DNA of 64,000 nt from Kaistella flava (ex Peng et al. 2021) (GTDB lineage: Bacteria > Bacteroidota > Bacteroidia > Flavobacteriales > Weeksellaceae), in the NCBI RefSeq assembly GCF_015191005.1, contig NZ_CP040442.1, positions 1,116,001 to 1,180,000 on the forward strand, read 5' to 3'. Below the pieces are notes generated by a model, which searched no databases, had not been told where the DNA came from, and saw only the letters and a program-made list of their open reading frames with translations. Positions within the stretch are counted from its first letter, which is position 1. The number at the start of each line of letters is the position of its first letter. Shown piece after piece: positions 6,969 through 31,945 of the stretch. Position numbers and translations under genes: made by a program.

Positions 6969-6979
6969 AATTATTTATT

Positions 6980-11146: not shown

Positions 11147-11150
11147 AATT

Positions 11151-13628
11151 TTACATGTAATTGGTTGTTAGTTTTAATTCTGAAAGGATAAGACCTGTAG
11201 CGGGTGATTTTGCATATACAGTAAATTCACCTTCAAAATCCTCCTCCATTGCAAGTGAAAATTTCATGGTCGTGTTTTCCGCGATTTCAACATATCCTGT
11301 CGTTGAATTAACCGATTCTGAAGGCGCTGGAGTACCAACGACTTTATCTCCACTCACCGCTTCAATCTGAACATCATTAATTTCTCCGAAAAGAGATTCT
11401 CCAAAAGCAGCAAGTTCCAAAGAGGGTCTTAATGTAGTGATACTACCTGACGATTTACCTTTGTAGGTTAAATTGATTTGAATGTCTTCTTTTTGCGAAA
11501 CTTTCTGCGGGCGATAAGTCAAGCATGGGGTAATAATTTCCTGCAACGAAATACCTTCATGGAAAAATTGCTTACCGCGTTCATAAGTAGCATAATTTTT
11601 TAAAAATAAAAATTGATCTACTTCTGAATTAATACCTAATTCTACCGCTGACAATTCGATATGGTCATTATTTGTTGCACCCTTTCCAGCGAGACATCGT
11701 GTTTTTTGAAGATACCAGTCTCCAACAGGTTTGGTACTATTGTTACCTGCTTTAAATTCATTTAGCAAAACAAATCCATGATCGGCAGCCAATACAAATT
11801 CCTCATAACCTTCGTCTTTCAACTTACTGGAAATTTTAAGGATTTTCATCAATGCCTGTTCAATGAGCAATTGTGCGTTATCTGGAGAATTCTCTCCTGC
11901 CTGATCAATTTCAGTTGTGGTCACAAACAACAAATCTGTTTTATCATATTTGTCGGTCAATATATCTTTATCCCACGCCCAAGAAGCTTTATCTCCTAAG
12001 ATTTGAGAAGTATATTTTATACGACTCTCCCGCGTAGAAGATTCAACGTCAGAGAGATAAGGTTCTAATTTTTCGTTCTTTATTTTGAGTGATAAATTCG
12101 AAGATGCTTTTGGCATTAAGGCTGCCATTGCATATTTAGTAACCGTAGGAGAAAAAGCCAAAGCCGGTTCCAGTTCAGTATCAAACTGATTTCTTTCCAA
12201 TCTTTCCTTCAATTGACTTGCCAGTTCGTAACGCATTGCATCCGCTAAAAAATAAACGGTCTTTTTACCTGATTTAAAAAGTGGCTCTACTCTTTTGTCA
12301 AATAAATCGATATTTCGTTGAATCGAAAGGGTGCTCAAACCTTGACCTTTCACTTGATCTAAAAAGGTTTTTTGTAAATCTTCCACAAAAATCAAATAAG
12401 CATCTACTGCGTATTTATGAACTTCTTTTAGTATCGGAGAAGCGGATATTAACTCAGCATAACTTTTATCCAGTTCTCTGTGCAAGGTATCTAACTGGTG
12501 AACTTCGGCCGCATACCAATTTACTATGGAATTAAGGTCAGTATATTTTTTGGCATCAACAGTTAATTTCTCAACCAATTTTTTAATAAGATGCGCCTTT
12601 TGACCAATCAACCAAGAAGATCTTCGGTCATCATCATAGGTGCTCCAAATAGATTCATGGTTGAGAAGTGATTCCGCTTTTTTTAAATCACCGGAAACGA
12701 GTTTATCTTTAAATTCATTAAAGAAAGTAGTGTCTTCAAAAGCGAAGGTATTAATACGACCTAAGTCGGTTTCTTGAGCAAATAGTTTCGGCAAAGAAAG
12801 TTCTTCACTCACGCGCTGTGCTTGATTTACATAAATTTCTTCAACATCTTTTGTTTTTCTTAGTTGTGTACAAACCTGTTGAATCAAAACCATTGTATTT
12901 GGTTGTGCAAGCGGGACATCTTTAAGTTGTTTCGGCAGTTCAATTGGTAAATCATGTACAAATTCACTGTATAAAACAAGGTTCCATAATTCCTGCGAAA
13001 CAGACTCAAACTTTTGGTTTTGTAAAGTAATCCCTAAAACGCTTTTTGTAAAAGTTTTTAATTCTTTAATCCAAGTTTTATCGGCTTGTAAAAATTCCTT
13101 TTGAGCCGTGGAGGGAATCAACATTGCGATCAGAATTTCTGCGTTTGAGGAGGCATTTAATCCACTTTTTAATTTTGGGTAATTATTGCCTCCCTGCAAT
13201 GCATCGATTGCGTCGAAGGAAGGATATTTTTCATCTCTAAAAAACTCTTCAATTTTAGTTTCTTTCTCCGGAAGAGCGGCGAGGCATAGCTGTTTATATT
13301 CATCTGCAGCCTGGTCCGGAAATACGCAACCTCCGGAAGAAAATATAATAAATGGATCAAAGGTTAAATCATCCTGATCTCTTTTTACTTCAAAGGGAAC
13401 GTAGACCACGATTTTCGCGTGTTTATTTTTAGGCATCACATTGACCCAATATTCCAGGGCATTTTCCCGAGCGGTCACTACATTTTCTGAAGCATCAAAA
13501 ACTTTGACATCATCGTTTTCTAAACCTTGGACAATTTCCTTGTAAAATAAAGTGGGATCATAAATAACCAAACCATAACCTGAGTCTAGTTTTTTTTGAA
13601 AATGTTGATGGATATATTCTTTTATCAT
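11151..13628 (-). CDS. pglZ: BREX phosphatase-like protein PglZ
   Basis: 825 aa, usual length for type A PglZ. The alkaline-phosphatase superfamily core is marked by VYFLADAMRYELA near residue 459, TTTEIDQAGENSP near 570 and VLAADHGFVLL near 613, where Asp/His residues would bind metals. PglZ is an essential BREX component thought to form a complex with the other Brx/Pgl proteins; its substrate is not settled. The start abuts the stop of the DUF262 gene (shared base at 13628) and brxL follows after 4 nt, so the genes are one transcription unit. The C-terminal 100 residues look like a beta-sandwich. Confidence 0.93.
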   Translation of the reverse strand: MIKEYIHQHFQKKLDSGYGLVIYDPTLFYKEIVQGLENDDVKVFDASENVVTARENALEYWVNVMPKNKHAKIVVYVPFEVKRDQDDLTFDPFIIFSSGGCVFPDQAADEYKQLCLAALPEKETKIEEFFRDEKYPSFDAIDALQGGNNYPKLKSGLNASSNAEILIAMLIPSTAQKEFLQADKTWIKELKTFTKSVLGITLQNQKFESVSQELWNLVLYSEFVHDLPIELPKQLKDVPLAQPNTMVLIQQVCTQLRKTKDVEEIYVNQAQRVSEELSLPKLFAQETDLGRINTFAFEDTTFFNEFKDKLVSGDLKKAESLLNHESIWSTYDDDRRSSWLIGQKAHLIKKLVEKLTVDAKKYTDLNSIVNWYAAEVHQLDTLHRELDKSYAELISASPILKEVHKYAVDAYLIFVEDLQKTFLDQVKGQGLSTLSIQRNIDLFDKRVEPLFKSGKKTVYFLADAMRYELASQLKERLERNQFDTELEPALAFSPTVTKYAMAALMPKASSNLSLKIKNEKLEPYLSDVESSTRESRIKYTSQILGDKASWAWDKDILTDKYDKTDLLFVTTTEIDQAGENSPDNAQLLIEQALMKILKISSKLKDEGYEEFVLAADHGFVLLNEFKAGNNSTKPVGDWYLQKTRCLAGKGATNNDHIELSAVELGINSEVDQFLFLKNYATYERGKQFFHEGISLQEIITPCLTYRPQKVSQKEDIQINLTYKGKSSGSITTLRPSLELAAFGESLFGEINDVQIEAVSGDKVVGTPAPSESVNSTTGYVEIAENTTMKFSLAMEEDFEGEFTVYAKSPATGLILSELKLTTNYM

Positions 13629-15439
13629 TATATTTTCCAGATTTTTATCGCCTTATCTGCTAAATCTTTTGATCTGCTCGCAACCTGATCAAATTTAAAT
13701 TCTTCATAATTTTCAGCGATTTCCTTAGTTATTTTCAGCGATGATTTATTGTATTGTTCTACTTTATCCTCAAAAGGATTATTGGATGCAACAATATTTA
13801 ATTTTTGTCCCAATAATGTTAAGTTCCCAATTCTGTTAACTACATCACTGTGCTTGTGTTTCGCACCTTCTCCTAAATACAATTCCCAATCACCAAATTC
13901 TTTCTTTGATTTTTTGGTAGTTATCGTTTGGGGGATAATATGTTCCAAATGAACTTCTACACCAGAATTAATAGTAAACTCTCCTTCGGTTTCATGGAGT
14001 TTATATTCAAATTGCTCTAGAACATATTTAGCTCTATTGATACTTCTCTTGTAATCTGCTTTTACAAAATTTAATTTAAACTCTTCATCATCAGGAATAT
14101 CTTTACTCAACCGCTTACCTACTGCATCGATAATATTGTGTTTATCTAACATGTTTACTAAGTCTGAAAATATATCGTCCAATATAGCAGTCTGTCTCAA
14201 GCAAATATGTCTTCTAAGCATAAATACTGCGACCATTTTCAGAATAACAATTCTATCCGAATCGGTGATATTGTCTCGAGAGAACAATTCCAATAAAAAA
14301 GTATAGGTTGGAATTGACTTTATACGTTGTAAATCTAATATAGCGTTGTTTATTTTATTATTGGAGAACTTTCGATTTCTGATATAGGAATATGTTTTTG
14401 CATAATTTGCCAACATTTCAGTAAAAGAAACGGCTGTAATCTTTTGTTCTTCACTCTTCTCATCTTCAACTTCTTCTTTACTGCTATTTTCTATTTCCTC
14501 ATCGGATTCAAGTTCATCTTCAATATCATCTTCCTCCTTTTCAATTTTCATTGTACTGTAAACTCTATACTCGGCTAGACCTTCACAGGCTTCTACGGAA
14601 TTAACATATAATTTTTTAAACTCATCATTCAAAAATGTATAAGTGATTTTTTTCCTTAATTGAGAACACATAAAGTGTCTGAAGAATTCGTCGGTATCTA
14701 TTCCATCAAGTGAGATAATTATATCCCTCCAATTTTCCTTTACCGCTGTTAAAGTCTCCTGATCCAAGCTTGAAGCATGGCCTAACAGAAAATTTTTAAT
14801 GATGTCGGTGGGACTTAAACTTAATCCTCGATTGTTGATGGTTTCAAAAAGTTTGTAAGCATCTTTCGCTTGGAAAACATCTAAACGAATCACCGATACT
14901 TTATCCATCAATTTATAATAGAATGAATTGAACTCATCATCCGTCAGTTCTGAAATCCATTCTGTAAAATAGGCAAAGTTATTTTTAAGATTTTCATTGT
15001 GAATGGTTTCCGGATCAGCATCCTTTAAAACTTTAATGTAATCGGGATTGTCCAGTTCGCCCAATGTTACTTTATTTTCCTTCACGCGATCAACTCCACT
15101 TGCTTTAAGGTAACCCTCTATTTTACTTGCCTCTTCAGTATCTTTCTTTTCTTCAAAAGCTTTACTTAATGCCGTTAGCAGTAGAGACAAAGTCGTAATT
15201 CTTTGTTGCCCGTCAATCACTTCTAACTGATTAATTTTCGCAGTGTGTGCGCCTGTTAAACAAACTAAATTGCCGAGTAGATGAGAATCATCATCGGTTA
15301 AGTTTTTGATATCGTTAAATAAGTCTTTACACTGCTTCCATTTCCAGGCATATCTTCTTTGGTAGGCAGGGATGAAAAATTGCTCATTCCGAGTACTGAA
15401 CAATTGACTTATCGTAAGTGGTGTTGGTGTTATTTTCAT
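13628..15439 (-). CDS. DUF262-DUF1524 nuclease (GmrSD / BrxU-like) embedded in BREX
   Basis: 603 aa. The N-terminal DUF262 (ParB-like NTPase) domain has FIPAYQRRYAWKWKQ near residue 21 and the hallmark VIDGQQRITTLS near 73. The C-terminal DUF1524 HNH-type nuclease domain has VHLEHIIPQT near 508 and VVNRIGNLTLLG near 542. Single-chain GmrSD/BrxU enzymes are type IV restriction nucleases that cut modified phage DNA, and they are known accessories of BREX loci. The gene sits between pglX and pglZ, 27 nt after pglX and touching pglZ, so it is an integral part of this operon. A Glu/Asp/Lys-rich insert at about 300-335 is probably a disordered linker between the domains. Confidence 0.87.
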   Translation of the reverse strand: MKITPTPLTISQLFSTRNEQFFIPAYQRRYAWKWKQCKDLFNDIKNLTDDDSHLLGNLVCLTGAHTAKINQLEVIDGQQRITTLSLLLTALSKAFEEKKDTEEASKIEGYLKASGVDRVKENKVTLGELDNPDYIKVLKDADPETIHNENLKNNFAYFTEWISELTDDEFNSFYYKLMDKVSVIRLDVFQAKDAYKLFETINNRGLSLSPTDIIKNFLLGHASSLDQETLTAVKENWRDIIISLDGIDTDEFFRHFMCSQLRKKITYTFLNDEFKKLYVNSVEACEGLAEYRVYSTMKIEKEEDDIEDELESDEEIENSSKEEVEDEKSEEQKITAVSFTEMLANYAKTYSYIRNRKFSNNKINNAILDLQRIKSIPTYTFLLELFSRDNITDSDRIVILKMVAVFMLRRHICLRQTAILDDIFSDLVNMLDKHNIIDAVGKRLSKDIPDDEEFKLNFVKADYKRSINRAKYVLEQFEYKLHETEGEFTINSGVEVHLEHIIPQTITTKKSKKEFGDWELYLGEGAKHKHSDVVNRIGNLTLLGQKLNIVASNNPFEDKVEQYNKSSLKITKEIAENYEEFKFDQVASRSKDLADKAIKIWKI

Positions 15440-15466
15440 GAAATATTTTTACTAATCTGCGTTTAT

Positions 15467-18400
15467 TTATTTTACTATTTTTCCCTTTGTTTCCTTCGGC
15501 TTTACCGTACAAATATCTTCTAAACCGTGAGCGATTGCCATGCTCAGATCTTTTACACATTTCTTGCGGACGCGATCCGGCCAAATGCTGTAGGCCAAAT
15601 GTGCCCAGTCATAATCTCCTTTTTCAAGTTGTTTCCAACAGTCCTGGGTGGCTTTTTTCCATTTCGGGTGGCGGAAAAGATTGTGTAGTGGTGCAGCAGT
15701 GATGAGGACACCGTCATCTTGATTGGGTTGGTAAGGCAATTGCGCAACTCGTAGCAATTCTTCTTTGAAATCTTCTAACTCGGCTAAAAATAATTTTTGA
15801 TCATTTAATTCTTTACCAGTCCCATTAAATTCTAAACCCTCTACTTCTTTGGCGACTTCTTTGATTTTTGGATCAACCAGTTCATTAATTATTTTGAAAA
15901 GAGAACCCGCGTTAAGTTTTGGATAATAAACCCAAACATTAAACTTGCCGGAAGGAACACCCAAATGCCAGTAAATTGGTGAGACTCTTTTGTTGCGCGA
16001 GTAATCTTTTAAATGCGCCTCAAAGAATTTAGAATGTTTGTCAAATATTTCAGAAAGTTCGTTGACTTTAAAATGCTCGGTTAATTCTTCTTCAATGGTG
16101 CCATGAGTTTCCGGCCAGAAATATTGGATAACTTCTTTTAGTTTGCCTACAATCGGATTGATATCTGAAACAGTGGCAACCTCTTCCAATACTTTAATTG
16201 GATAAGGGATTTCCCAAATTTCTTTTATTTTATCGTGGTATTCTGGAAGCACCAAATCTAAAGTTGATTCCCTCTTTCCATATAAAAAAGGGCTGTGTTT
16301 TCTAGCTTTAAAAATATCTTCATCACTCCATTCTTGATCCCAATGTTTTAGAATACGGATATCCCACCTGCCAAAAGCAGAGCCTACTAATATTGTCAAT
16401 ATTTTATCAAATTGAGACTTTTTGTCAATTTGAAATATCTTTCCCTCATCATCTTCTCCAGCTTTTAACACAATTCTCAAAATTGCATCTCTCTCCAATT
16501 CTGTAATCTGAAAATAATTAAAAACTAAGGAATTCAGTTCGCTCAGATCAGACACATATTGATCTCTATAATTTTGTAATTTTTCGGTTATATTTTGCAA
16601 GAAAATAGAGATAGACTTTTTATTCACAAAAGTGTTAAATTTAAAGTTAACACTTTTGGAATCAAGTGCTTTGACGTATTTTAATTTTTCATAATTTGTT
16701 AAAACTATTTGCTTAATCGCATTAACAAGAACCGCATTTAAATGTGGAATTGGTAAATTGTTAACTGTTCCATTATTATATGCTGGTTGATAATCCTTCT
16801 CTAAATTCAATTTAATAATATAATCATAAAGTTGCGAATTAAATAATCCACAAATTACTGAAATATCATCAGCATGGGAGAATACCATCAAAGATTTAGA
16901 ACTTGTTGGTATAAATCCTTTTGGAATTATGTGAGGTTTAAAATAAACACTTCTAAAAGCCCAGCTTAAACCTTCTTTGAAATATTCTTTTTCATTTCTG
17001 ATATTTCCTCCGTAAACTTTTACTTCCTTACCTTTCTCTTTCCAATTAATAACTGTGTAATAATCCCCGAATATCCTAGTACTTTCTTCATTAAGAATAA
17101 AAAACTCCCAATTATTTTGTTCAATTATTTCCCACTGATTTCGGATAAATCTAAAATTATTTCCCGTATCTAACCCTTTTTTAGCACTTGCGGTAGTATC
17201 ACTTATTTTCGGATTATCTTTTGAAAGATCAAATGCTTTATTTATTGCCCAGTAGCAAAGAGGAGCATTTGGTAATAATAAAAATAAATTTGGATTTAAT
17301 TTATAGGTATTATTAGATAAAGAATCTAAAAGAACTGTCTTTAAATTTAGTTCTTTATCTTGATAATCAGTCAGTCTGAAAAATATTGATTTGTTAGTAC
17401 TTTTTCCTTTTTTAATTACATAAGCTGAAGTTTCTACCATCGCATCAAGAACTCCTCCACCCAAATCTATCATCGTTTGGATTTGATTTTCCTCAAGGAT
17501 GTATTTTCTACGCCAAGCAGAATAAGTGCTTAGGAAAAATATTGTTCTGGTAGTAATACTTCCTAAATTGGCATCGTTAGAAAGCATAAGAAGCATTCGA
17601 TCTATAAATACTGATGCTAAATCTGCCTTACTTAGAGAATAATTATCTTCAATATATTTTTTAGAGTTTTTCGAAGCTGCTCCAAATGGTGGATTCATGA
17701 CAATGACGTCATACCTTTTTCTGCACAATTCTATAAATGCAAAACCGCGTGCAGTATCTTCTGCAAAGAGTAATTTCTGAAAAGCATCACTACCTTCTGC
17801 ATTTTCAGAGAAACGTTGTAAAGCTTTCAACACTTCATCTTCCGCGGTATCAAAAAAGTCTTTGCTGATCTTTTGACCTTTGCCATAAATGGCGGCCATT
17901 TCTCGCATTTTAAGTTCAGGGCCTTCATCAAAAATGCTCAATTGAGCAGAGCTGTCTTTGTGTTTTTCGTACTCCGCTTTTGTAATTTCAATTTCTTTCT
18001 TCAGTTCCTCTTCAATTTTCAATAGAAGTCCGGTTTCACCAACTAACTGCATTTTATCCCAAATTACGCGCACCAATTTTCCAATTGGGCCTGGTAAACT
18101 TTGGGTAAACTCAGCCAACATATGTACATCTCCCGGCATAGGTTCTGCCAAGACCAAATTACTTTTGCTGATCGCAGGTCGGTCTGCAGGCTGTAAGTTC
18201 AGTCGGTCAAATGTCTTCTGCGCCCGCAACCATAAACTGAGTCCGGCAATCTGTATCGCACGAGGATCGATATCTACTCCATGAATATTATAACGAAGAA
18301 TAAAACCGGGAATCATTTTAATAAAATCTTCCCGCAAATAATCTGCTCTTAGATCTTGCATTAATTCCGGATGATTATCCCAAGCTTCGATATAAATCTG

Positions 18401-19414
18401 TTCATAAAGATCAAAACAATACAATCCAAAGTGCATGGATCCACAAGCAGGATCGAGCATCAGTATTTCCCGTGGATCTTTTAATTCTCGGTATTCAATA
18501 TAATTGGCGCCTTCAATGGTGGTCTCAGGAATTGATTCTCCTTTTTTCAGAAAAATCTCATGTTCTCTTTTCACCATATATTGGCAGGAATCAACCAGAG
18601 AAGTTTGTCCATTGGTCATTTCAAACCATTGTCTTCCCAAACTGTTATCCACCAAAAACTGCACGACATATCTCGGCGTGAAGAACTGATTTCTAACGGC
18701 TAACTCCCGACTGTTTCTGGGAGCACCGGAAGCGTCGCGCATTTCAGAAATTTCCTCGCGGCTATTGTAATACTGGTAAATCCAACCGATTGTTTCATCT
18801 TCTATCCATAGGTTTACAGGTTGTTGTCCGGTTTCCCGATACATCTTCAACTCGTCATCATTGATGATGGTGAGTAATTCAAGCAAGACTCTTTCAGAGG
18901 GGAACAATAAAGCGTAGGGAGAAAAACGGTCAAACACCGCTGGGAGATCGATTGCCAGTTCATCAAAAACATGACCGATATACCAAGTATAGCGCGTAAA
19001 TTCATCTGCTGTTTTGGCACCGCCGGTCAACTGATCGTAGACAAGGAAGCCTTCCGATTGAAATCCTTTACGAATAGATTCGCGGATGATATTTCTTTCC
19101 TCCGACATTCTTACGGCAGCGAAACGGTTCAAAATAGTAAAGGCCTGTTCACGTATTAACTGCCGTACTGCTTCGGGAGCTTTTTTGGTACCCGCAATTC
19201 CTTCTTCCAAATAATGAAGACGCTGCCGGAGTAATCGTGCAGTTTCAATTTCGGATGCTTTGCGCGTTGTTAATTCCTCTACCAATAAATAAGAACCATC
19301 CGGACGAATGCCATAATACTGTTGTAATTGACTTTCGAACTCGTTCATCAGCAATTTTTTCGCAGACTGAACAACGGATCTTATTTTATTTCTTGCGCCT
19401 TGTGTTAATGCCAT
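15467..19414 (-). CDS. pglX: BREX adenine-specific DNA methyltransferase PglX
   Basis: 1315 aa. Catalytic motifs: the SAM-binding motif I DPACGSMHFG near residue 322 and motif IV NPPFGAAS near 576, the NPPF signature of N6-adenine methylases. FFTPRYVVQFLVDN near 245 is the typical entry to the domain. PglX marks host DNA at a non-palindromic site so that BREX spares self and blocks phage. The C-terminal half carries target-recognition and complex-binding regions. The frame is intact, and I see no homopolymer tract that would suggest phase variation. It follows brxC after 1 nt, so translation is probably coupled. Confidence 0.95.
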   Translation of the reverse strand: MALTQGARNKIRSVVQSAKKLLMNEFESQLQQYYGIRPDGSYLLVEELTTRKASEIETARLLRQRLHYLEEGIAGTKKAPEAVRQLIREQAFTILNRFAAVRMSEERNIIRESIRKGFQSEGFLVYDQLTGGAKTADEFTRYTWYIGHVFDELAIDLPAVFDRFSPYALLFPSERVLLELLTIINDDELKMYRETGQQPVNLWIEDETIGWIYQYYNSREEISEMRDASGAPRNSRELAVRNQFFTPRYVVQFLVDNSLGRQWFEMTNGQTSLVDSCQYMVKREHEIFLKKGESIPETTIEGANYIEYRELKDPREILMLDPACGSMHFGLYCFDLYEQIYIEAWDNHPELMQDLRADYLREDFIKMIPGFILRYNIHGVDIDPRAIQIAGLSLWLRAQKTFDRLNLQPADRPAISKSNLVLAEPMPGDVHMLAEFTQSLPGPIGKLVRVIWDKMQLVGETGLLLKIEEELKKEIEITKAEYEKHKDSSAQLSIFDEGPELKMREMAAIYGKGQKISKDFFDTAEDEVLKALQRFSENAEGSDAFQKLLFAEDTARGFAFIELCRKRYDVIVMNPPFGAASKNSKKYIEDNYSLSKADLASVFIDRMLLMLSNDANLGSITTRTIFFLSTYSAWRRKYILEENQIQTMIDLGGGVLDAMVETSAYVIKKGKSTNKSIFFRLTDYQDKELNLKTVLLDSLSNNTYKLNPNLFLLLPNAPLCYWAINKAFDLSKDNPKISDTTASAKKGLDTGNNFRFIRNQWEIIEQNNWEFFILNEESTRIFGDYYTVINWKEKGKEVKVYGGNIRNEKEYFKEGLSWAFRSVYFKPHIIPKGFIPTSSKSLMVFSHADDISVICGLFNSQLYDYIIKLNLEKDYQPAYNNGTVNNLPIPHLNAVLVNAIKQIVLTNYEKLKYVKALDSKSVNFKFNTFVNKKSISIFLQNITEKLQNYRDQYVSDLSELNSLVFNYFQITELERDAILRIVLKAGEDDEGKIFQIDKKSQFDKILTILVGSAFGRWDIRILKHWDQEWSDEDIFKARKHSPFLYGKRESTLDLVLPEYHDKIKEIWEIPYPIKVLEEVATVSDINPIVGKLKEVIQYFWPETHGTIEEELTEHFKVNELSEIFDKHSKFFEAHLKDYSRNKRVSPIYWHLGVPSGKFNVWVYYPKLNAGSLFKIINELVDPKIKEVAKEVEGLEFNGTGKELNDQKLFLAELEDFKEELLRVAQLPYQPNQDDGVLITAAPLHNLFRHPKWKKATQDCWKQLEKGDYDWAHLAYSIWPDRVRKKCVKDLSMAIAHGLEDICTVKPKETKGKIVK

Positions 19415-19415
19415 G

Positions 19416-22400
19416 TTACCAAGTTATTTCAATTATATTTCCTGCATCTAATTCTTCTTTGATGTTTTGCAGTTCTTCGATAAGAAGATTCAATTCGCTT
19501 TGACTAGAAATCGTTTTTGAAAAAGCAGATAAACTTTTTGTAACCTTACTCTTTTCGATTATCGTGGGTTCAGGATTCGGATTTGGAACCGGAGGATCTG
19601 GAACTACAACGGGTTCAATTATAATTACAGGTTTAATTTTTGTGTACTCCGTTATTTGCTCACGAACTTCCTTTAAGTTATTAGAAATGGTATAATTGTA
19701 TTTTAAAATATTTTTAATTCCTTCCAAGCCCTGTTGGTTTTCGATTTTCAAACCTTCCAATCGTGTCGCAATCTCTTTTTGCTGATCCTCTTTTAATCTA
19801 CTCCAATCTTCAGCGGACTTTATTTGCGAAATCTCTGCAGTGATATTTTCATTTTCAGCAGACAGCAATTTTTGTGAATAATCTGAACACAAGTTTTTAA
19901 TATTGCTATTTGCTTCTTTTAAATCAGATATTTTGGATACGAAATTAGTATTGTTTGTAATTTGATGTACAATATCGAAATCGTTTTGGGCATTTTCTTT
20001 CAAATCTTTTAGAAGGCCGGAATCAGGAAGTTCAGAAATACTCTTTTTTAAATCATTTGCTTCAATAAAAGATTCTTCAATTCCGTTATCAAATCCTTTT
20101 TGGACTTCGGCAATCCAAATTAAATTTGTAAATAAATCAGAAACTGGCTTGCCTAATCTGAATGCAGCATCTGAACCTTCGCCTTTCAAAATTTCAGCAA
20201 TACCGTCCTGTACTTCCTGTGCTTTATCCTGTCCCGGCAAGCCCAAATACTGAAGTTTGGTTTTAACGGAGGAATATTTAGTTTGAAATTCAGGGAAATA
20301 ATGTCGTACTGCCTCCGCAATTTTGTCTGGAAGAGGGGCAATCACCTTTCCAGTAAGTTGACCTAACCGCTGAATTGATAACGAAACCATTTCGGCAGAA
20401 GGCTTTTCATTTGCCTGAAAAGCAGAGATTGCAATTTTACTGAACCCATTTACATTTTTTAAAGCTTCAATTGCTTTGGGTCCAACCACCTTAATATCCT
20501 CCCCTGAAATTCTCAATTTAACATCGGAAGCAATAAACATAGCAGAGATTAAAAACCGCGTTGTATCCTTGCTCCAGCCATACGGTGCTGCATCGAAATG
20601 CTCCAGCAGTTTACGGCCTTCTACTTGATCCTCTTTAATGATAAATTCTCTGATAGATTTGAGCGATTCCTTATCTAATTCAATACTTCCATCGCCTTTA
20701 ATCAAATCAAAATGATTAAGAGATGACGGCAAAACTTTTAAATTTGGAAAATTCAATAATTTCTCTGCATCAGAACCTCCAATATTAATAGGAGCCTGAA
20801 TGTATTTATCGTATACCAAATTAGCAACTTCGCTCAGTTTACTATTGGTACAGTCTCTAAATTTATTCCCATAACTGGTAACAGGCTTATTGCTTCCTCT
20901 GAAAACAAATTCACCTTTTTCAAAAGCCTGGACAATAACTCTAGTTACTAGTTCTTTCAAGCGGGAAGCTTCCTGTTTCTGGCTGTTCAGATAATCAGTA
21001 ATCTCTTTGTCATTATATTTATTTCTCGTACTATAAATCGCTTCATTTTTAACGATTTCCATAATGTTGTCATCAATATTTTTTTCGATTTTACCGATTA
21101 GAAATATTTTGGATGACGATGAACTGTCAGTACTGTTTCTGATGAGATCGATCACCAGTTGAGAATATTCAACAGCATTAGAAATAATCACATCCGTTTG
21201 AATTTCCTCATTAGGTTCGAGCAGTTTAGATATTTTACCGTTTTGATTTAAGTTAATTCCGGTTCGCACCGTTTTAGTGTTTAAGAGTCTCGCCTGCGGA
21301 ACGGGAGAGAATATATCTTTGATAATGTCTTCATAAACCTTTCTAATTTCACTAGAAGTTGGCAGGATCTTATTCTTTTCGATCTCAATGTTAATAATAG
21401 CATCGGTCATGAATCTTAATTCACCATCGATTTCATTTAGAGTACAACCCGGTGTATTTTTTAATTCATCAACAATCGCTGTAACTTTTTCAATCACAGA
21501 ATCACTTGTTGCGTTTGGATGCATCAATACTGCTACATTTTTTGTTGACAAATAGAAATCATCTAATAACTGGAGAACTGCTATGGATTTTGCAACTTGC
21601 GCATGCTCAGAAGATTCACCATAAAGCGCCGCGATTTTATCGACTGCTCCTACAATATGGCTGTACGATTTTCTAATATCTGCTTTTAAGACATCATAGA
21701 TATGGTAAGCAGTTGCAAGTTTTCCTAAGTCAAACTCTGCTAATGCTTTATCTTCAGAAGACAGTTTAGCGGTAAGAACATCTTGGATTACTTTAATTGC
21801 CGAACGCAAACCTACTCCACCGGTAATCTTAGCTAACCTTCCCAATAATGAAATGATAATTTCAAAATGCTGTGGTAAAAATGGATATAGATTGGTAAAT
21901 AATTGTTCGTCCAAATCATCTTTACTGTACATGGTTCGCTCGCATTTCTCAAGCTTGGTATAATGACGAAGTTTTTCTCCGTGCGCTTTGTACAACTGCT
22001 TAAGTTGATCAGAAGATGTGGGGGATTTTCCTAAAATTCTTTGCGTACAAATTTCTTTAATATCAGAAGCTTCAATTTCAGCTTTAATGGGAAATCGGTC
22101 TTTTAACTTATAAAGTTTATCTGAATTTAAACGGGAATTAGGATTATCTTCAGTTAATGTTTGTTGTGCGGTCGCAAGTAACCAGGCCTTTCCACCTCCA
22201 ATATCTTTCAAATTTTCGAGTGTTCCCTGGAGAGAAAGAATCAAACTTTCTTTAGCAGAAATGTATTGTCCCACTTCATCGACAACAAAAATAATATTTT
22301 CTTTACCTGTGATTTTCCGAATTGTTGAAAGCAGCTCTTCTATTTTCTGCTTATCGGTTCGCATGTCATCAACCTTTGTGGTTTTGAATGATTTGTCATC

Positions 22401-23069
22401 TCTCCAAATTTTCGGATAGAAATTAGCGGCCAATGTCGAAGCAATTCCTTTTGCTTTTAACTGGTCATGCATTTTTATCTCGTGCCAGTCTTCATTATGT
22501 TCTGTTTGAATTTCATTAATAAACGTGTCCAATTTACCATCTTTTTGTAGCATTTGCTCCAAATTAGCTAATTGCCCATCTGTAGAATAACCCGCCAATT
22601 GATTTACTTTCGCAATTAGCAGTTCCAATATTGGAGGAAGTGTTCCGCCTTTAATTTGTTCTGTAGCACAATCTAACAGAACAACTGCTGGATCATAATT
22701 TTCAACAATTCTCTTAAAAAGTTGAGAGGTAGGTATTGAATTAATCCTGTTTGATAAGCGGTCTAAAAATAATTGACCATCAACTGTATAATCTTTCTGA
22801 AGCCCATATCCTAAGTATTTAGCAAAAGAACTTTTACCTGAGCCATAAAAACCAGAAACCCAAATTCCTACTTCAGTAGATTTTTCTCCCATTCCATGAT
22901 GTAAGGCATCCAGAATTTTATCGAAATTGTCTTTAAGTCTGTCCGTAACTACATATTCGGAAATCTCATTTTTAAGATTAAGTTCTGTAGCGTTGCCAAA
23001 AGTTACTACCTTTTCTATGGAGCGGTAGATATTTTTATCTGCGCCAAATATTTCTCTAATTTTTGTCAT
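19416..23069 (-). CDS. brxC: BREX P-loop ATPase BrxC
   Basis: 1217 aa, normal family length. Walker A is GFYGSGKSSFAKYLG near residue 70 and Walker B is IIFVVDEVGQYIS near 260. The large central region and a coiled-coil C-terminal third (about 1000-1140) match BrxC/PglY layout. A Pro-rich linker (PVVVPDPPVPNPNPEP) precedes the last 60 residues. BrxC is a core ATPase needed for both methylation and exclusion in type 1 systems. It starts 12 nt after the brxB stop and ends next to the pglX start. Confidence 0.95.
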   Translation of the reverse strand: MTKIREIFGADKNIYRSIEKVVTFGNATELNLKNEISEYVVTDRLKDNFDKILDALHHGMGEKSTEVGIWVSGFYGSGKSSFAKYLGYGLQKDYTVDGQLFLDRLSNRINSIPTSQLFKRIVENYDPAVVLLDCATEQIKGGTLPPILELLIAKVNQLAGYSTDGQLANLEQMLQKDGKLDTFINEIQTEHNEDWHEIKMHDQLKAKGIASTLAANFYPKIWRDDKSFKTTKVDDMRTDKQKIEELLSTIRKITGKENIIFVVDEVGQYISAKESLILSLQGTLENLKDIGGGKAWLLATAQQTLTEDNPNSRLNSDKLYKLKDRFPIKAEIEASDIKEICTQRILGKSPTSSDQLKQLYKAHGEKLRHYTKLEKCERTMYSKDDLDEQLFTNLYPFLPQHFEIIISLLGRLAKITGGVGLRSAIKVIQDVLTAKLSSEDKALAEFDLGKLATAYHIYDVLKADIRKSYSHIVGAVDKIAALYGESSEHAQVAKSIAVLQLLDDFYLSTKNVAVLMHPNATSDSVIEKVTAIVDELKNTPGCTLNEIDGELRFMTDAIINIEIEKNKILPTSSEIRKVYEDIIKDIFSPVPQARLLNTKTVRTGINLNQNGKISKLLEPNEEIQTDVIISNAVEYSQLVIDLIRNSTDSSSSSKIFLIGKIEKNIDDNIMEIVKNEAIYSTRNKYNDKEITDYLNSQKQEASRLKELVTRVIVQAFEKGEFVFRGSNKPVTSYGNKFRDCTNSKLSEVANLVYDKYIQAPINIGGSDAEKLLNFPNLKVLPSSLNHFDLIKGDGSIELDKESLKSIREFIIKEDQVEGRKLLEHFDAAPYGWSKDTTRFLISAMFIASDVKLRISGEDIKVVGPKAIEALKNVNGFSKIAISAFQANEKPSAEMVSLSIQRLGQLTGKVIAPLPDKIAEAVRHYFPEFQTKYSSVKTKLQYLGLPGQDKAQEVQDGIAEILKGEGSDAAFRLGKPVSDLFTNLIWIAEVQKGFDNGIEESFIEANDLKKSISELPDSGLLKDLKENAQNDFDIVHQITNNTNFVSKISDLKEANSNIKNLCSDYSQKLLSAENENITAEISQIKSAEDWSRLKEDQQKEIATRLEGLKIENQQGLEGIKNILKYNYTISNNLKEVREQITEYTKIKPVIIIEPVVVPDPPVPNPNPEPTIIEKSKVTKSLSAFSKTISSQSELNLLIEELQNIKEELDAGNIIEITW

Positions 23070-23081
23070 CTTTCTGTCTAT

Positions 23082-23648
23082 TTAAAAATGCTTTGATCTG
23101 TAATTTCCATCTTCTGGATAAAATCCTAAGTACTTAAGGGCTGAGCCTGATATTTCCCCCGGATACATTACGATAATGGGAACTTCTACTTTAGTATATA
23201 TTTCTTGTTCTATTGGTCCAAAACGGCTGTAAGGATGAATTGCTTCAAGATCTGTGATGATCAAGACGCCATCCTTTAAACTCTTTACATTTTCTTGTTT
23301 GTCTAAAATTGCATTCTCTAACACTTGCCGCTGTTTCATATTTTCCCCTAAGCTGTTATAGGTTTCTTTCATTTCTTCTTCATCTTCCACCGCATCTTCT
23401 CCCGCTGTAATTCTATAATCATCTTCGATAAAAAAATCTTTTAAAACTTCATGTAGAGAAAGTACTATGGGATTAATTCCTTTGTGCTTGGCAATGTCTA
23501 ACCAGCCTTCATTAAGTTTTCGTTTAACGTGCTGTATTTTTTCCGTTGGAAAAGTGAGGTAGCAGATAGTTTTATCTCCACTGTGATCATGCGCTTTTGG
23601 CTGCACCAAATAGTCTAGCAAATCTGTAAATCTTTTATCTATATTCAT
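23082..23648 (-). CDS. brxB: BREX protein BrxB (DUF1788)
   Basis: 188 aa, a typical BrxB. The DUF1788 pattern is visible: ERFxxLLDYL-type N-terminus (here KRFTDLLDYLVQPKA), ICYLTFPTEKIQHVKRKL, a central ATP-independent alpha/beta core, and DLEAIHPYSRFGPIEQEIY near the C-terminus. BrxB is required for BREX assembly with BrxC, PglX and PglZ. Its start overlaps the brxA stop by 14 nt, which supports translational coupling. Confidence 0.92.
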   Translation of the reverse strand: MNIDKRFTDLLDYLVQPKAHDHSGDKTICYLTFPTEKIQHVKRKLNEGWLDIAKHKGINPIVLSLHEVLKDFFIEDDYRITAGEDAVEDEEEMKETYNSLGENMKQRQVLENAILDKQENVKSLKDGVLIITDLEAIHPYSRFGPIEQEIYTKVEVPIIVMYPGEISGSALKYLGFYPEDGNYRSKHF

Positions 23649-24402
23649 TTTCTATAAATTCATCCATATTATGGTACTTCCATCCAATTCTTAATATCTC
23701 GCCTGAGTGTTGAAAAATGAAAGTTCCTTTAAAAGAAATCTTCTCAATTTCGGTTATAATATCATTTTCTGATAACCCAAATAATTTCCATACTTTATTT
23801 TGTACAATTGCACCGTCACTTAGGCCCATAAAGTGAAGTTCGTGGAGCAAATAATTAACAACCATTTGGTTGGGATGATTCATTTTCAAAGTCCCTTCCC
23901 TATCAATTAAATCGAAATCCTTTAAACATGAAATGAGATAGGAAGAAACACGCTTGATAATTGAATCACTCCACGCTGGAGCTTTTAAACTTGATATCGC
24001 TCTTAAAAGAAAACTCTTTGATGTTTCATTATTAATCTTTTGATTCTGGTTCGACTCACCCAACTCCAAAACAAAATCAAATAATACTTGATTTGCTCTC
24101 GCGGTGTACACATAAAAAAGTGATTTTAAACCTTCTAAACTTAATCCGTATTCTCTTAAGTCTTTTAGGTTCTTTACTACTTGATAATCTACATTCCAGT
24201 ACCGCTGATAAAAGACCAAATTAATAATATCTTTGGTCCTATGCTCTGTTGATTTGTTTAAAATATTGTGGGAAATGCACCTATTTAAGAATGATTCTTT
24301 TGAATCGCCCTCTTTATAAAATTCGGTAAGAGTCAAGGTTTCATTTATTAAACCTGTACCCTTAGCCAAATTAGCATTGTATACGTATTTAATCGCAGTC
24401 AT
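23635..24402 (-). CDS. brxA: BREX protein BrxA (DUF1819)
   Basis: 255 aa, somewhat longer than many BrxA proteins (about 200). The DUF1819 features are the N-terminal KGTGLINETLTLTEFY, the RYW/LLREYG-like segment (YWNVDYQVVKNL) and the NYLLHELHFMGLSDG motif near residue 190. BrxA is a small helical DNA-binding protein of the BREX core. Its start shares one base with the stop of the upstream brxE-like gene. Order and spacing are those of BREX type 1. Confidence 0.9.
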   Translation of the reverse strand: MTAIKYVYNANLAKGTGLINETLTLTEFYKEGDSKESFLNRCISHNILNKSTEHRTKDIINLVFYQRYWNVDYQVVKNLKDLREYGLSLEGLKSLFYVYTARANQVLFDFVLELGESNQNQKINNETSKSFLLRAISSLKAPAWSDSIIKRVSSYLISCLKDFDLIDREGTLKMNHPNQMVVNYLLHELHFMGLSDGAIVQNKVWKLFGLSENDIITEIEKISFKGTFIFQHSGEILRIGWKYHNMDEFIENEYR

Positions 24403-27282: not shown

Positions 27283-27480
27283 CTGTGCAGATAAAATGCA
27301 TATATCGTGTTTTACTTTGCAATAGAAATCAACGAAACAAATCATCAGGAGAGTCCCGAACAAAGTCACGGGAACACCAACCGAGAGTTAAGCCTCCACG
27401 GTGGTATAGAATGAGGGCGACCTGCCAAATATAAAAGGTTACTACAATCATTTTCCTTACTGATGATTTGATGTTTGTTT
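27283..27480 (+). ncRNA. structured RNA-like element, copy 1
   Basis: This gene-free stretch repeats at 28380-28573; the two copies match nearly base for base over long parts of 27283-27441. Predicted structure: a closing stem CAAATCATCAG (27339-27349) / CTGATGATTTG (27460-27470), 11 bp; hairpin A TCCCG (27354-27358) / CGGGA (27369-27373); hairpin B ACCAACCG (27376-27383) / CGGTGGT (27399-27405) with one bulged A. The hairpin B loop CCTC (27393-27396) can pair with GAGG (27413-27416) as a pseudoknot. A weak -7-like TTACTTTG (27312-27319) lies upstream. It ends 16-26 nt before the ATG of a paralogous gene. I do not recognise the family. Confidence 0.6.
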
Positions 27481-27495
27481 AAAAATTACAATCAT

Positions 27496-28050
27496 ATGGA
27501 AACTACTTTTGTACAATGGGCGATGGGTCAATTTTTGATCGTCAATGTAAAAATTCCAGAAAAATATTATGTGGAAATCGAGGTCATTTATCCCTATCCA
27601 GGAATAAAAGGAGAATACTTTACAGATGCCGATGACTTGCACGATGAAAATAATTTCTGGATTATAAGGAACCTTATCTTTAGAGTATCACAAGGTTACT
27701 TCTACTTTTCACGTTTTGCCAGCGATAGTCTTCATGATAAAGCCAAATTTCTGAACCATGAGTCAACCGAAAGATGTTATCATAGATTCGTTTGGAAAAG
27801 TATTGATGAGGAAGTCAGATTTGAATGGTGGGCTGATGATGATATGAAATTCTTCAGTAAACGAACCATCGAAAATATCACTCTTTCCTTAAAGCATTTC
27901 ATTTTAACGAAACAATCATCTATTGCTGACATTTATGAATATGAAGACCGTGATATCACGCTCCGAAAGATGAGAAATCTAATAACTGAACAAAATTGTG
28001 ATCATGTTTATATATATATCTATGTGATGGCAGAAATGACACCGAAATAA
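27496..28050 (+). CDS. hypothetical protein of the local P-F/Y paralogue family
   Basis: 184 aa from the ATG at 27496, preferred over an in-frame TTG at 27475 that lies in the RNA element. The N-terminus FLIVNVKIPEKYYVEIEVIYPYPG shares the I-x-x-P-F/Y signature seen in the four following family members. It is cytosolic with no known catalytic motif. The coding frame ends soon after a (TA)5 tract (28009-28019). Shifting frame there continues without a stop into the next ORF, so the protein may once have been about 100 residues longer. Function is unknown. Confidence 0.65.
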   Translation: METTFVQWAMGQFLIVNVKIPEKYYVEIEVIYPYPGIKGEYFTDADDLHDENNFWIIRNLIFRVSQGYFYFSRFASDSLHDKAKFLNHESTERCYHRFVWKSIDEEVRFEWWADDDMKFFSKRTIENITLSLKHFILTKQSSIADIYEYEDRDITLRKMRNLITEQNCDHVYIYIYVMAEMTPK

Positions 28051-28085
28051 AAAATTATCATAAAAAAATACAGCGCGAGAAAAAT

Positions 28086-28328
28086 GTGGATTTCGCACAG
28101 CAGCTTGAGATTGCCATTACGGAATCTTCATATTCTTATCCCTGCCTATCCCTTACCACTGAATCAAAGTTATTACGCCAAGAATTTGAAAAGTTTACTG
28201 ATGTAGAAAAGGAATTTTATCTTTCCAGGCATCATGTAAAAGGGAAATGGTTGCCTTATAATGACCTTGCAAAGGAGTGGTTTGACTCCAAAAATGGAAT
28301 AAATACTAAGACTGCCCGCCAAGAATAA
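28086..28328 (+). CDS. small hypothetical ORF, possibly the displaced C-terminus of the preceding gene
   Basis: 80 aa if read from GTG at 28086. The frame is open back to about 28002, across the TA tract, and would join the end of the preceding gene after a frameshift. The sequence KFTDVEKEFYLSRHHVKGKWLPYNDLAKEW is helix-rich and has no known family. I read it either as a small gene or, more likely, as the broken C-terminal half of the 27496 gene. The start codon is unsupported by any ribosome-binding signal. Confidence 0.4.
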   Translation: MDFAQQLEIAITESSYSYPCLSLTTESKLLRQEFEKFTDVEKEFYLSRHHVKGKWLPYNDLAKEWFDSKNGINTKTARQE

Positions 28329-28379
28329 TTTTCTTCATCCAAATAAGATTATTTACTATTTAATTCTATAAAAAATAAA

Positions 28380-28573
28380 CTGTGCAGATAGAATGCATAT
28401 ATCATGTTTTACTTTGCAATAGAAATCAACGAAACAAATCATCAGGAGATTCTGCAAATGCGGGACACCAACCGAGAGTTAACCCTCCGCGGTGGTATAG
28501 AATGAGGGCGACCTGCCAAAATAAAAGGTTATATCCCAACAATTTCAGCCAAAACCTCCTGTTCATTATTTCG
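28380..28573 (+). ncRNA. structured RNA-like element, copy 2
   Basis: Diverged direct repeat of 27283-27480. Hairpin A has changed sequence but keeps pairing: TTCTGC (28450-28455) / GCGGGA (28460-28465), including two G-U pairs. Hairpin B ACCAACCG (28467-28474) / CGGTGGT (28490-28496) is identical. The pseudoknot is longer here: CCCTC (28483-28487) / GAGGG (28504-28508). The closing stem uses CAGGAG (28443-28448) / CTCCTG (28556-28561) and CGAAA (28430-28434) / TTTCG (28569-28573). Compensatory change with preserved pairing supports a selected RNA. It ends 20 nt before the ATG at 28593. Confidence 0.62.
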
Positions 28574-28592
28574 ATTTTAAAATTAAAATCCT

Positions 28593-29281: not shown

Positions 29282-30178
29282 ATGTGTGTTATTTACCAAT
29301 TTTCGCGTGAAGAAAATAATATTATTTTTAATATTGAAAATTACATTGAACATCACTTTTATGGTGAAATTATCTTTCCATTTCCCAACATCAAGTTCTA
29401 TTATTTTACTGAAGAGCATTATTTCCTTCCATACAATATTGAAGAACATGTAAAGGAATATGTAGGAAATCTGATCTCTATTTTAGAAGATATTGCAATA
29501 AATATCGAATATATAAAAGAAATTTCTGCAAAATTTTGCCAGTATAACAAGCATTCTGAAGATGGAAAAAATAATATTCGAAGAATTGTAATAGATCCAT
29601 TTATTGAAAACACGATCAATAAATTTCCTTTCCAAAATGTAGGACTTACATTCAAGCAAAGTCTCGCGGAAGCAATATTTAAAGTTCTTATAAAAAATCC
29701 TTACTACAGCATAAGAAATAAAGAAATTCAACACGAAGATATATTTGAAGATATTTTGAGTGAATATAAATACATCATTAATTTAGATGGAGAAGAGAAT
29801 TGGAGCATTTATCCTAAACTGCACGAAAGGTTTTTTGAAGAAATGGGAGAAGATTGCAAATTGCTAAAAATGCTTCAAACGAATCACAAAAACACCAGAA
29901 TTCCTGATGAATATTTGGAACAAAGTGGGATCGATGAGTATCTCAACAAGGAAGACGGTAAACTTCCATTATTTATAGGGACACAATTTGGTATTTCACC
30001 GAAAATCATACCCGAACTGATAAAAAGAATGGAGGGACAGAAAGTTGTTTTTCTAAATAAATCACAATTATCCGGATATGAACATTCTATGGATTTAAAA
30101 CTGATTAAGAATGGCGAATTTAAAACACTTAAGAAAATTACAAGAGAACAAATTGAAAATATAAACTATGAGTTGTAA
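29282..30178 (+). CDS. hypothetical protein, 298 aa, paralogue of the next gene
   Basis: N-terminal signature IIFNIENYIEHHFYGEIIFPFPN, helical middle, and a distinct C-terminal module: DEYLNKEDGKLPLFIGTQ...MEGQKVVF...LKLIKNGEF. The same module recurs in the following 301-aa protein, so the two are clear tandem paralogues. A cytosolic protein of unknown function. It overlaps the next gene by 11 nt, which supports co-translation. Confidence 0.75.
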   Translation: MCVIYQFSREENNIIFNIENYIEHHFYGEIIFPFPNIKFYYFTEEHYFLPYNIEEHVKEYVGNLISILEDIAINIEYIKEISAKFCQYNKHSEDGKNNIRRIVIDPFIENTINKFPFQNVGLTFKQSLAEAIFKVLIKNPYYSIRNKEIQHEDIFEDILSEYKYIINLDGEENWSIYPKLHERFFEEMGEDCKLLKMLQTNHKNTRIPDEYLEQSGIDEYLNKEDGKLPLFIGTQFGISPKIIPELIKRMEGQKVVFLNKSQLSGYEHSMDLKLIKNGEFKTLKKITREQIENINYEL

Positions 30179-31073
30179 TGCGGTAAAGAATAGTGAATAT
30201 CACTCAAATAAGGAAGGTGAAGACAACAGTCACTTATACGAAATGATATCCGAGGGACAAACAATACTATTTAGAATTGATGAGTACTCACCCCATTTTT
30301 TTCAGGGTAAAATCCTCTATCCTTTCACTTTTAAGTTCGATAGTTATTCAGAACAAACATACCATTTTTTGAATTTTAAAGACAGATTAATAGTCTTTGT
30401 CAACAAAATGATTTCTTCGCTCAACGAAATATATAACTCCTTAGAAGTATTAAAGAAAGATTACGGGATTTTTTGTTTTTACAATAATGATTTGGAAAAA
30501 AGCAAAGAAGTTATTAAGCAGTATTTAATCGAAAGATTCAAATGGGTTAACACTTGTTCTTTTACGCACAAAAATCTAGGAGACACCTTTCTTCACAGCG
30601 TTTTGGATTCATTATATGAATATCTCATTGACGAACAACAATTTAAATTTAAGAGGGACCATTCGGAATTTGAAGTGACCGTAAGCAATTTTGTTACGCA
30701 ACACAGCAATATTTCATTTATAAATCCGGACTTCAGTACAATCTTCGGTCACACTTTGGTTCATGAATTTTACAAAGAGTCAGGTTGTAAAAACATAATA
30801 TTTAAAACAATTGAATCTACCTGGAATCTGGTAGCAGAAGAATACACTGAAAAATGCACAATCGATGAATATATGCTTGAAGAAGAAAATAAACTGCCCC
30901 TAATTATAAGCAGTATGAATTATCCATCGCCGAAATTAACTGATGATTTTGTGGAATTAATGGAAGGACGTGAAGTTGCACTTTACATCATTTCTGGTGT
31001 TGATCGTATTGCGGATACGCTGCAGTTGTGTAGAATAATAGATGGTGAATTTATGTTGATTAAAAGAAAATAA
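30168..31073 (+). CDS. hypothetical protein, 301 aa, tandem paralogue
   Basis: N-terminus ILFRIDEYSPHFFQGKILYPFTF and C-terminus IDEYMLEEENKLPLIISSM...MEGREVALYI...CRIIDGEF match the preceding protein segment by segment, at low but co-linear identity. The middle differs more, which suggests diversification around conserved ends. The start overlaps the previous stop by 11 nt. No known domain can be named. Confidence 0.75.
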   Translation: MSCNAVKNSEYHSNKEGEDNSHLYEMISEGQTILFRIDEYSPHFFQGKILYPFTFKFDSYSEQTYHFLNFKDRLIVFVNKMISSLNEIYNSLEVLKKDYGIFCFYNNDLEKSKEVIKQYLIERFKWVNTCSFTHKNLGDTFLHSVLDSLYEYLIDEQQFKFKRDHSEFEVTVSNFVTQHSNISFINPDFSTIFGHTLVHEFYKESGCKNIIFKTIESTWNLVAEEYTEKCTIDEYMLEEENKLPLIISSMNYPSPKLTDDFVELMEGREVALYIISGVDRIADTLQLCRIIDGEFMLIKRK

Positions 31074-31135: not shown

Positions 31136-31669
31136 ATGGCAACTAAAACAATAGGTCAGGTTTATAAGCAAAATGTAGAAATTTCTCCAAAAGAATATCT
31201 TGAAGTTTATGCAGTTGATGAATCTTCACATGAAGATTTCATTGATCTTAAACTTTTATTTCCGTACCAGGATTACGGTTCAGAATTCTTTGTTGAGGGA
31301 GGTTTCGATGCAGAAGAAAGAGTGAAAGTCATCCGAGACATGATGGAAGGATTGGTTCTGGGTTTAGATGTTTTAGACAGAGGTCGGGAAAGTTTTAATT
31401 TTAAATTCCACTATGAATCAGATCTTAATAAAACCACCAATGAGACCGGTCGAATTCTGCTTCACGAACAATATCTTACCCGAATTAACAAAGCAATGTG
31501 TTTAAATATTTTACCTGAATATATTAGTAAAAGTTTATTACAGAAAAACAGAGAAATTGCAGTTGAATTATTGCATAAAAATCAAATTCCTAATAAAAGT
31601 AAATTTGGTAAAGATGCTTTCAGATTTATTATTTCAAAGATGACAGATAAAATAATTACGTTGGTTTAA
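31136..31669 (+). CDS. hypothetical protein of the local P-F/Y paralogue family
   Basis: 177 aa. The N-terminus VYKQNVEISPKEYLEVYAVDE...IDLKLLFPYQDYGSEFF again carries the family signature. It is followed by a helical stretch (ERVKVIRDMMEGLVLGLDVLD). It lacks the LPL..MEG C-terminal module of the two preceding genes. A 62-nt gap to the previous gene contains no terminator, so it is probably in the same unit. Function is unknown. Confidence 0.7.
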   Translation: MATKTIGQVYKQNVEISPKEYLEVYAVDESSHEDFIDLKLLFPYQDYGSEFFVEGGFDAEERVKVIRDMMEGLVLGLDVLDRGRESFNFKFHYESDLNKTTNETGRILLHEQYLTRINKAMCLNILPEYISKSLLQKNREIAVELLHKNQIPNKSKFGKDAFRFIISKMTDKIITLV

Positions 31670-31693: not shown

Positions 31694-31945
31694 ATGATAA
31701 AACAGGAACAACTTTGGAAGCATCGTCTGGCTGCACAAACCGATGAAGAACTTATCAAAAGTTTCAACAAGGAAGTGTGTAATCCTGGTTGGACAACTGC
31801 ACGTGGAACCTACCTTCATCTGATGAGAAACGAATTTAGGAACAGAAGTTTCGATAGCAGTTTAATCATCAACGAAAACACTTTTAAACTTGCTAAAAAA
31901 ATCGTTATACGGAATAATATTGTTGTCTATAGAGAGGATTTATAA
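31694..31945 (+). CDS. small hypothetical protein, 83 aa
   Basis: Begins 24 nt after the preceding stop, on the same strand, so it is probably the last gene of the paralogue operon. The sequence is helical and basic (LWKHRLAAQTDEELIKSFNKEV, TYLHLMRNEFRNRSF). It has no recognisable domain and shows no convincing similarity to its neighbours. Confidence 0.6.
   Translation: MIKQEQLWKHRLAAQTDEELIKSFNKEVCNPGWTTARGTYLHLMRNEFRNRSFDSSLIINENTFKLAKKIVIRNNIVVYREDL

Follow-up and report, generated by a model that had tools for sequence, protein, structure and literature searches.

SAM riboswitches usually control methionine genes. A list published in 2010 names the SAM-I/IV type 'SAM-I-IV-variant' (RF01725), with the entry 'several phyla, marine' and typically from metagenome sequences, and its P2 helix was stated to be without an internal loop (available part of PMC2864571). 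As RF01725 has already been described, the RNA treated here belongs to a known class; neither its regulon nor its setting appears among the literature matches listed. In open-access titles and abstract starts, none of these matches places a SAM riboswitch at a locus of BREX, of restriction-modification or of a defence island, and none of those naming SAM-I-IV or RF01725 concerns the operon genes described below. According to the available part of one BREX paper, the riboswitch used there is a laboratory construct (PMC11580459). Published WYL and BREX regulators are proteins, as far as the available parts of the sources go (PMC9122601, PMC12255303), whereas the regulator considered here is an RNA of a SAM-sensing class. 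BREX is itself vulnerable to the loss of SAM, the SAM lyase of phage T3 depleting SAM and inhibiting both BREX methylation and BREX defence (available part of PMC11842806). In the 64,000-nucleotide stretch of Kaistella flava analysed in this work (the window), two tandem SAM-I/IV riboswitches, each with its own expression platform, very probably place an accessory operon under repression by SAM (Table 1). The likeness of this locus to type I BREX systems is one of position, as it adjoins a complete BREX operon.

The preliminary description of this DNA had presented the two RNAs as unrecognised. Both score above the RF01725 gathering score of 41.1 bits, with E-values against Rfam of 3.7e-6 (copy 1) and 2.6e-6 (copy 2) in a search of 2.2 kb, which supplied copy 2, the scan of the whole window having returned copy 1 only. 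By this model of sequence and structure, both are SAM-I/IV riboswitches. The hairpins originally called A (TCCCG/CGGGA in one copy, TTCTGC/GCGGGA in the other) and B are real and correspond to P2 and P3 of the aptamer, and the pseudoknot between the P3 loop and GAGGG is discernible by eye in both copies. On inspection, P2 is interrupted by a one-base bulge only, plus one mismatch in copy 1, and matches in both copies the published description of a helix without an internal loop; the innermost P1 pair is mismatched in both. The window copies thus resemble SAM-I/IV in model score, conserved core and P1 to P3, and would be expected to bind SAM. They are related to SAM-I (RF00162), but their best match within the clan is SAM-I/IV. 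What sets them apart from SAM-I/IV as described is that they lie 1.1 kb apart, each ahead of its own gene, and that the genes they precede belong to no known family and adjoin a BREX operon.

Conservation of the aptamer was examined in an alignment of 37 members, picked for diversity from the RF01725 places found and including copy 2 and a named Bacteroidaceae locus. At eight core nucleotides, 37/37 aptamers agree; we take these nucleotides to be G11, A12, C44, A45, A46, C47, U57 and G58 in SAM-I numbering, which would give the two classes the same core. Under the Rfam structure, pairing extends to 83.8% of cells (65.4% after shuffling), two-sided changes occur in 154 cells (53 after shuffling) and the covariation score is 0.417 (0.145 after shuffling), none of these three values being reached in 500 shuffles. 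Two of the five measures are weaker, namely the number of pairs with double changes (17 against 15.3; 44/500 shuffles as high) and that of further pair types (43 against 37.9; 16/500). As a control, partners slid by 1-3 columns left only 32-47% of cells paired. The covariation check proposed at the outset therefore supports P1, P2 and P3 across the 37 aptamers, with two of the five measures less decisive.

The two leaders are duplicates of one another. Positions 27283-27495 and 28380-28592 share 160 identical among 207 aligned positions, which bears out the long shared blocks first noticed in these gene-free regions. Outside the P2 hairpin, the promoter-like region and most of the aptamer are near-identical; the final ~60 nt ahead of the gene differ. 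The promoter-like element of copy 1, TTACTTTG, is near the TAnnTTTG consensus of -7 elements; the strict motif occurs within 45 nt upstream of 12/31 aptamers, against 3.7% of shuffles, and is absent at both window copies. A plasmid or phage origin of the two-copy stretch was considered and set aside, as blastn gave no match in a plasmid or phage collection.

Table 1 Features of the tandem leaders and their surroundings, in positions of the window.
Feature	Position	Strand	Remark
Complete BREX operon	9047..24402	-	PADLOC: BrxL, PglZ, HEC-06/Orf5-like gene, PglX methyltransferase, BrxC, BrxB, BrxA
Divergent gene, 281 aa	26390..27235	-	RNYIAH motif; 54% identical homologue in L055
Promoter-like -7 element TTACTTTG, copy 1	27312..27319	+	Read from sequence
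SAM-I/IV riboswitch aptamer (by model), copy 1	27337..27442	+	Rfam RF01725, 47.8 bits, full-length 1-99
Predicted start-codon hairpin, copy 1	27452..27502	+	Encloses ATG at 27496
Predicted anti-P1 segment CTGATGATTT, copy 1	27460..27469	+	Alternative partner of 5' P1 strand AAATCATCAG at 27339-27348
Gene 1, behind copy 1, 184 aa as read	27496..28050	+	Frame broken
Promoter-like -7 element TACTTTGC, copy 2	28410..28417	+	Read from sequence
SAM-I/IV riboswitch aptamer (by model), copy 2	28434..28533	+	Rfam RF01725, 48.5 bits, full-length 1-99
Predicted anti-P1 segment CCTCCTGT, copy 2	28555..28562	+	p 0.05
Predicted hairpin GATTTTA/TAAAATC, copy 2	28573..28590	+	Just before 28593 start codon; same in both folds
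First gene behind copy 2, 219 aa	28593..29252	+	No known family
298-aa protein	29282..30178	+	Family without known match; 28% identical to 30168 protein
301-aa protein	30168..31073	+	Family without known match
177-aa protein	31136..31669	+	Distant member of 29282/30168 family
83-aa 'NPGW' protein	31694..31945	+	Its family is the most consistently tied to SAM-I/IV

In both copies the 5' strand of P1 has an alternative partner ahead of the gene, the predicted duplex amounting to -17.4 kcal/mol in copy 1, with 0/300 shuffles as low, and to -10.1 kcal/mol in copy 2, at the p value given in Table 1. The long-range closing stem of different bases reported earlier is real in both copies, but it is an alternative to P1 and lies outside the aptamer. 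The same pairing was sought in 21 leaders, picked from the places found for a clear start codon, by comparing the first 18 nt of the aptamer with the stretch ahead of the start codon. It was found at p<=0.05 in 17/21 (combined z -14) and lay above p 0.05 in L044, L050, L067 and L007. Between the end of the aptamer and the start codon lie 33-66 nt in 21/21 leaders, and this stretch folds into a start-codon hairpin (combined z -6.8; positive z in four leaders). This hairpin overlaps the anti-P1 strand by at least 4 nt in 17/21 leaders, so that the two structures compete.

The four leaders without such an overlap include both window copies (1 nt in copy 1 and 0 nt in copy 2), whose start-codon hairpins are no better than those of shuffles (z -0.01 and -0.97, respectively). 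In copy 1, ATGATT at 27463-27468 pairs with AATCAT at 27490-27495 and TTTCC at 27452-27456 with GGAAA at 27498-27502, and the hairpin enclosing the start codon appears once P1 is forced; in copy 2 the start zone is identical with the P1 or the anti-P1 fold. In a folding model without ligand or pseudoknot energy, the ligand-free anti-P1 form is lower by 13.9 kcal/mol in copy 1 and 3.7 kcal/mol in copy 2. Anti-P1 pairing and a competing start-codon hairpin lead to the reading of a translational OFF switch, with genes on when SAM is low, which is well supported for the leader group and only moderately for the two window copies. Binding of SAM would let the aptamer form together with P1, leaving the downstream segment available for a hairpin that covers the start codon and keeps translation low; as SAM falls, the 5' P1 strand would pair with the downstream segment, the start codon would open and the genes would be translated.

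Copy 1 precedes a damaged gene, the frame of which is lost at 28009-28019 and continues in another frame to about 28328; an intact 303-aa homologue is found at L036:8268-9179. The TA dinucleotide tract at 28009-28019 is slippage-prone. Copy 2 is followed by five genes, starting at 28593, 29282, 30168, 31136 and 31694, with gaps of at most 62 nt, which probably form an operon. In the libraries run, which differ by protein, the operon proteins had no match above the family cut-off in Pfam or NCBIfam and weak matches at most in PHROGs; the 83-aa protein was searched against these three libraries. Profiles of three operon-protein families gave weak matches to solved structures (PDB) and no convincing relative, and in PADLOC 5/6 operon proteins had no match at E<=0.1, nor did these 5/6 match a known BREX or defence protein model. 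The genes behind the two copies had been described as paralogous. BLAST finds no alignment between the 27496 and 28593 proteins, and the relationship holds at the level of family profiles, which match in the N-terminal halves only (126 columns, probability 65%, E 6e-5). In the same profile comparison, the 28593 family resembles the 29282/30168 family in the N-terminal half only (probability 65%, E 6e-5). A second family of about 200 aa lies directly behind SAM-I/IV in L041, L045, L048, L051, L063, L064, L069, L070 and L071, its N-terminus being, by eye, like that of the 83-aa protein. In P0020 a D12 methyltransferase carries a homologue of the 83-aa protein at its start; this was tentatively taken as a chimera at a shared short word and left aside.

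The SAM-I/IV module appears to be accessory rather than core. In the window's genus, SAM-I (RF00162) is above the cut-off in 34/36 genomes and SAM-I/IV occurs sporadically, in 7/36. The genome of the window has two SAM-I copies which, by eye and unlike the SAM-I/IV copies, stand ahead of metX-like and metY-like genes.

Across the Weeksellaceae, RF01725 is above the cut-off in 96/296 genomes; the genome search missed window copy 2, and these counts, like that of SAM-I/IV in the genus, are therefore lower bounds. The 83-aa protein family has 23 places in 21/296 genomes, and 19 of these 23 places have a same-strand SAM-I/IV match no more than 6 kb upstream (within 110 nt in 9), a figure that is partly circular since 11/23 places supplied the profile. 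Outside the profile set, 8/12 places are linked. The 28593 family occurs in 3/296 genomes, behind SAM-I/IV in 3/3, the same three having built the profile. The 29282-type family occurs in 9/296 genomes, with three members behind SAM-I/IV, four scanned without a match and two weak members outside the scan; in G146 and G166 the scan showed no SAM-I/IV ahead of the related proteins. Beyond the family, SAM-I/IV stands ahead of small-protein homologues at 3/7 scanned places. One of these (L118), a Bacteroidaceae MAG contig, was found by protein pattern and has SAM-I/IV directly before the gene (43.1 bits); the other two (L136 and L137) were reached by searching 395 genomes of the phylum with the protein alone, and each of the two other genomes so found has SAM-I/IV upstream (48.0 and 55.2 bits). 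Five further places, in four genomes, emerged from 246 genomes of the order; four of these five, in two other families, were scanned and had no SAM-I/IV. The cis-acting, duplicated leader repeatedly tied to the same proteins that had been proposed is thus borne out by the family linkage. Random placement of homologues relative to the downstream genes, which would have spoken against it, is mostly not seen, the exceptions being these order places, the four 29282-type members scanned without a match, and G042, G083, G144 and G249, where no SAM-I/IV was found in the scan beside the 83-aa homologues. In L121 a small-protein homologue and a piece of the 29282 family (6874-7185 and 7283-7498) lie side by side with no riboswitch detected, so both gene kinds co-occur there without the RNA. 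The putative regulon comprises a small-protein family that accompanies SAM-I/IV in several families of the Bacteroidota and an operon beside BREX, and the linkage offers a handle on genes left nameless by homology searches.

The surroundings of the module were compared in two locus sets that we chose from the places found, 17 module loci and 17 controls, the controls being other SAM-I/IV loci. Defence genes lie within about 6 kb in 8/17 module loci and near at least 2/17 controls. The former comprise BREX in two loci, type I restriction-modification parts in L034, L038, L040 (with LmuB) and L043, a type III system in L055 and AbiEii in L039; the latter have a DNA methyltransferase in L054 (orphan/type II) and L068 (type I), and their count may be 3, as two matches of the pooled control scan, one to a type IV restriction enzyme and another, the second of its kind, to mad2, may belong to a further locus. 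Pooled PADLOC scans returned 171 families among 148 module-neighbour proteins and 57 among 133 control proteins, of which the best 25 in each case were considered, so that further matches may exist on both sides. Proteins of module loci were also run singly, having been picked by eye, and 2/10 of one batch had no match; the pooled Pfam scan contained two BrxA and two BrxB members. The one-sided Fisher test gives 0.029 for 8/17 against 2/17 and 0.071 against 3/17. Leaving out L039, whose defence gene, at a distance of about 4.9 kb, falls beyond the 4.2 kb that the pooled scans spanned, changes these values to 0.059 and 0.129; leaving out the window gives 0.046 and 0.105, and leaving out both gives 0.093 and 0.188. 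The enrichment is suggestive only.

Several neighbours recur. L036, of the same genus, carries by eye BREX genes beside tandem SAM-I/IV copies, and its BrxC is a relative of the window's. WYL-domain genes adjoin SAM-I/IV in L036, L038 and L055, which recalls the WYL proteins that regulate defence islands. One integrase family is represented in L033, L034, L035 and L118 (L131 covers the L034 place), and L118 also has, by eye, DNA-methyltransferase-like genes and an AbiE-like pair. The divergent gene next to copy 1 encodes a protein with an RNYIAH motif which we take to be that of HEPN RNases; PADLOC gave it weak matches to candidate families only, and its homologue in L055 is near the WYL gene and SAM-I/IV. 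A CBS domain seen by eye in the same protein was unsupported by Pfam and was dropped. Within the BREX operon, the gene at 13628-15439 (-), between PglX and PglZ, is HEC-06/Orf5-like and also SspE-like. An N-formylglutamate amidohydrolase gene lies near BREX at 25562-26308, and its relative at L043:6768-7508 has its own SAM-I/IV upstream and shares its locus with a type I methyltransferase gene.

An antitoxin or guide-type RNA, as also entertained in the preliminary description, is extremely improbable, and was set aside on the full-length RF01725 match of both copies: they correspond to a metabolite aptamer from end to end, with its conserved core and an alternative-pairing platform, no antitoxin- or guide-type Rfam family scored above its gathering score at either copy, and the position of the aptamer end 33-66 nt from the start codon throughout the leader group also argues against it; nothing was found in its favour. 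What the proteins do is a separate matter. They may serve methionine and SAM homeostasis under ordinary sulfur regulation, the proximity to defence genes reflecting hitch-hiking on mobile islands. This would agree with the general role of SAM riboswitches, with SAM-I/IV copies in relatives that, by eye, also precede an NhaC-like antiporter gene and a homoserine-dehydrogenase-like gene, and with the ordinary chromosomal surroundings, again by eye, of several small-protein loci (L044, L047, L050, L065, L067, L143 and L144), by which defence is not the sole setting. We consider it somewhat unlikely, given that SAM-I/IV is sporadic in a genus where SAM-I is nearly universal, that the operon proteins tested resemble no family above cut-off in Pfam or NCBIfam and have only weak matches in PHROGs and PDB, and that BREX, type I/III restriction or mobile elements adjoin about half of the module loci.

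Because the module often adjoins SAM-dependent BREX and restriction-modification systems, we propose, tentatively and as a doubtful but reasonable possibility, that the operon products come into play once SAM no longer suffices for methylation or defence by those systems, and then either back up defence or put a brake on self-restriction; an operon that opens as SAM falls, beside SAM-dependent systems, would act just as these fail. Taken singly, each form is unlikely. As a brake, the products would damp restriction or BREX when SAM is scarce and so shield under-methylated host DNA. Most of the neighbouring defence systems found are SAM-dependent DNA modifiers and the pI of five of the six proteins is acidic (4.8-5.6), but this acidity is modest, the 83-aa protein is basic (pI 9.5), and no anti-restriction family, such as those of ArdA and Ocr, is among the operon-protein matches, which confines the likeness to the proposed role. 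Restriction alleviation is known for type I systems (available part of PMC11109961). A back-up acting by abortive infection, set off by a phage SAM lyase or by SAM exhaustion, is improbable to us as well: it would suit the inhibition of BREX by SAM loss (available part of PMC11842806), the HEPN-like motif of the divergent neighbour with a relative beside another SAM-I/IV locus, and the AbiEii, LmuB and restriction-modification proteins near other members, but no effector domain was recognised in the riboswitch-controlled genes.

In our reading, the locus is a SAM-depletion response module, often carried on mobile defence islands. In its defence-linked form, which we hold to be less likely than not, a phage or starvation would strip the cell of SAM and thereby disarm BREX or restriction-modification, the riboswitches would open, and small proteins not described before would be made, which would take over defence or prevent self-restriction. 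If so, we know of no earlier case in which an arm of a methylation-based defence island is controlled by a riboswitch, and an operon answering to SAM loss during infection would amount to a metabolite-level alarm for anti-defence. Three SAM-I/IV matches barely above the cut-off (43.9-44.3 bits; L058:4402-4508, L060:5084-5186 and L062:5361-5464) lie 104-117 bp before integrase-like genes of mobile elements, and these integrases are possibly SAM-controlled.
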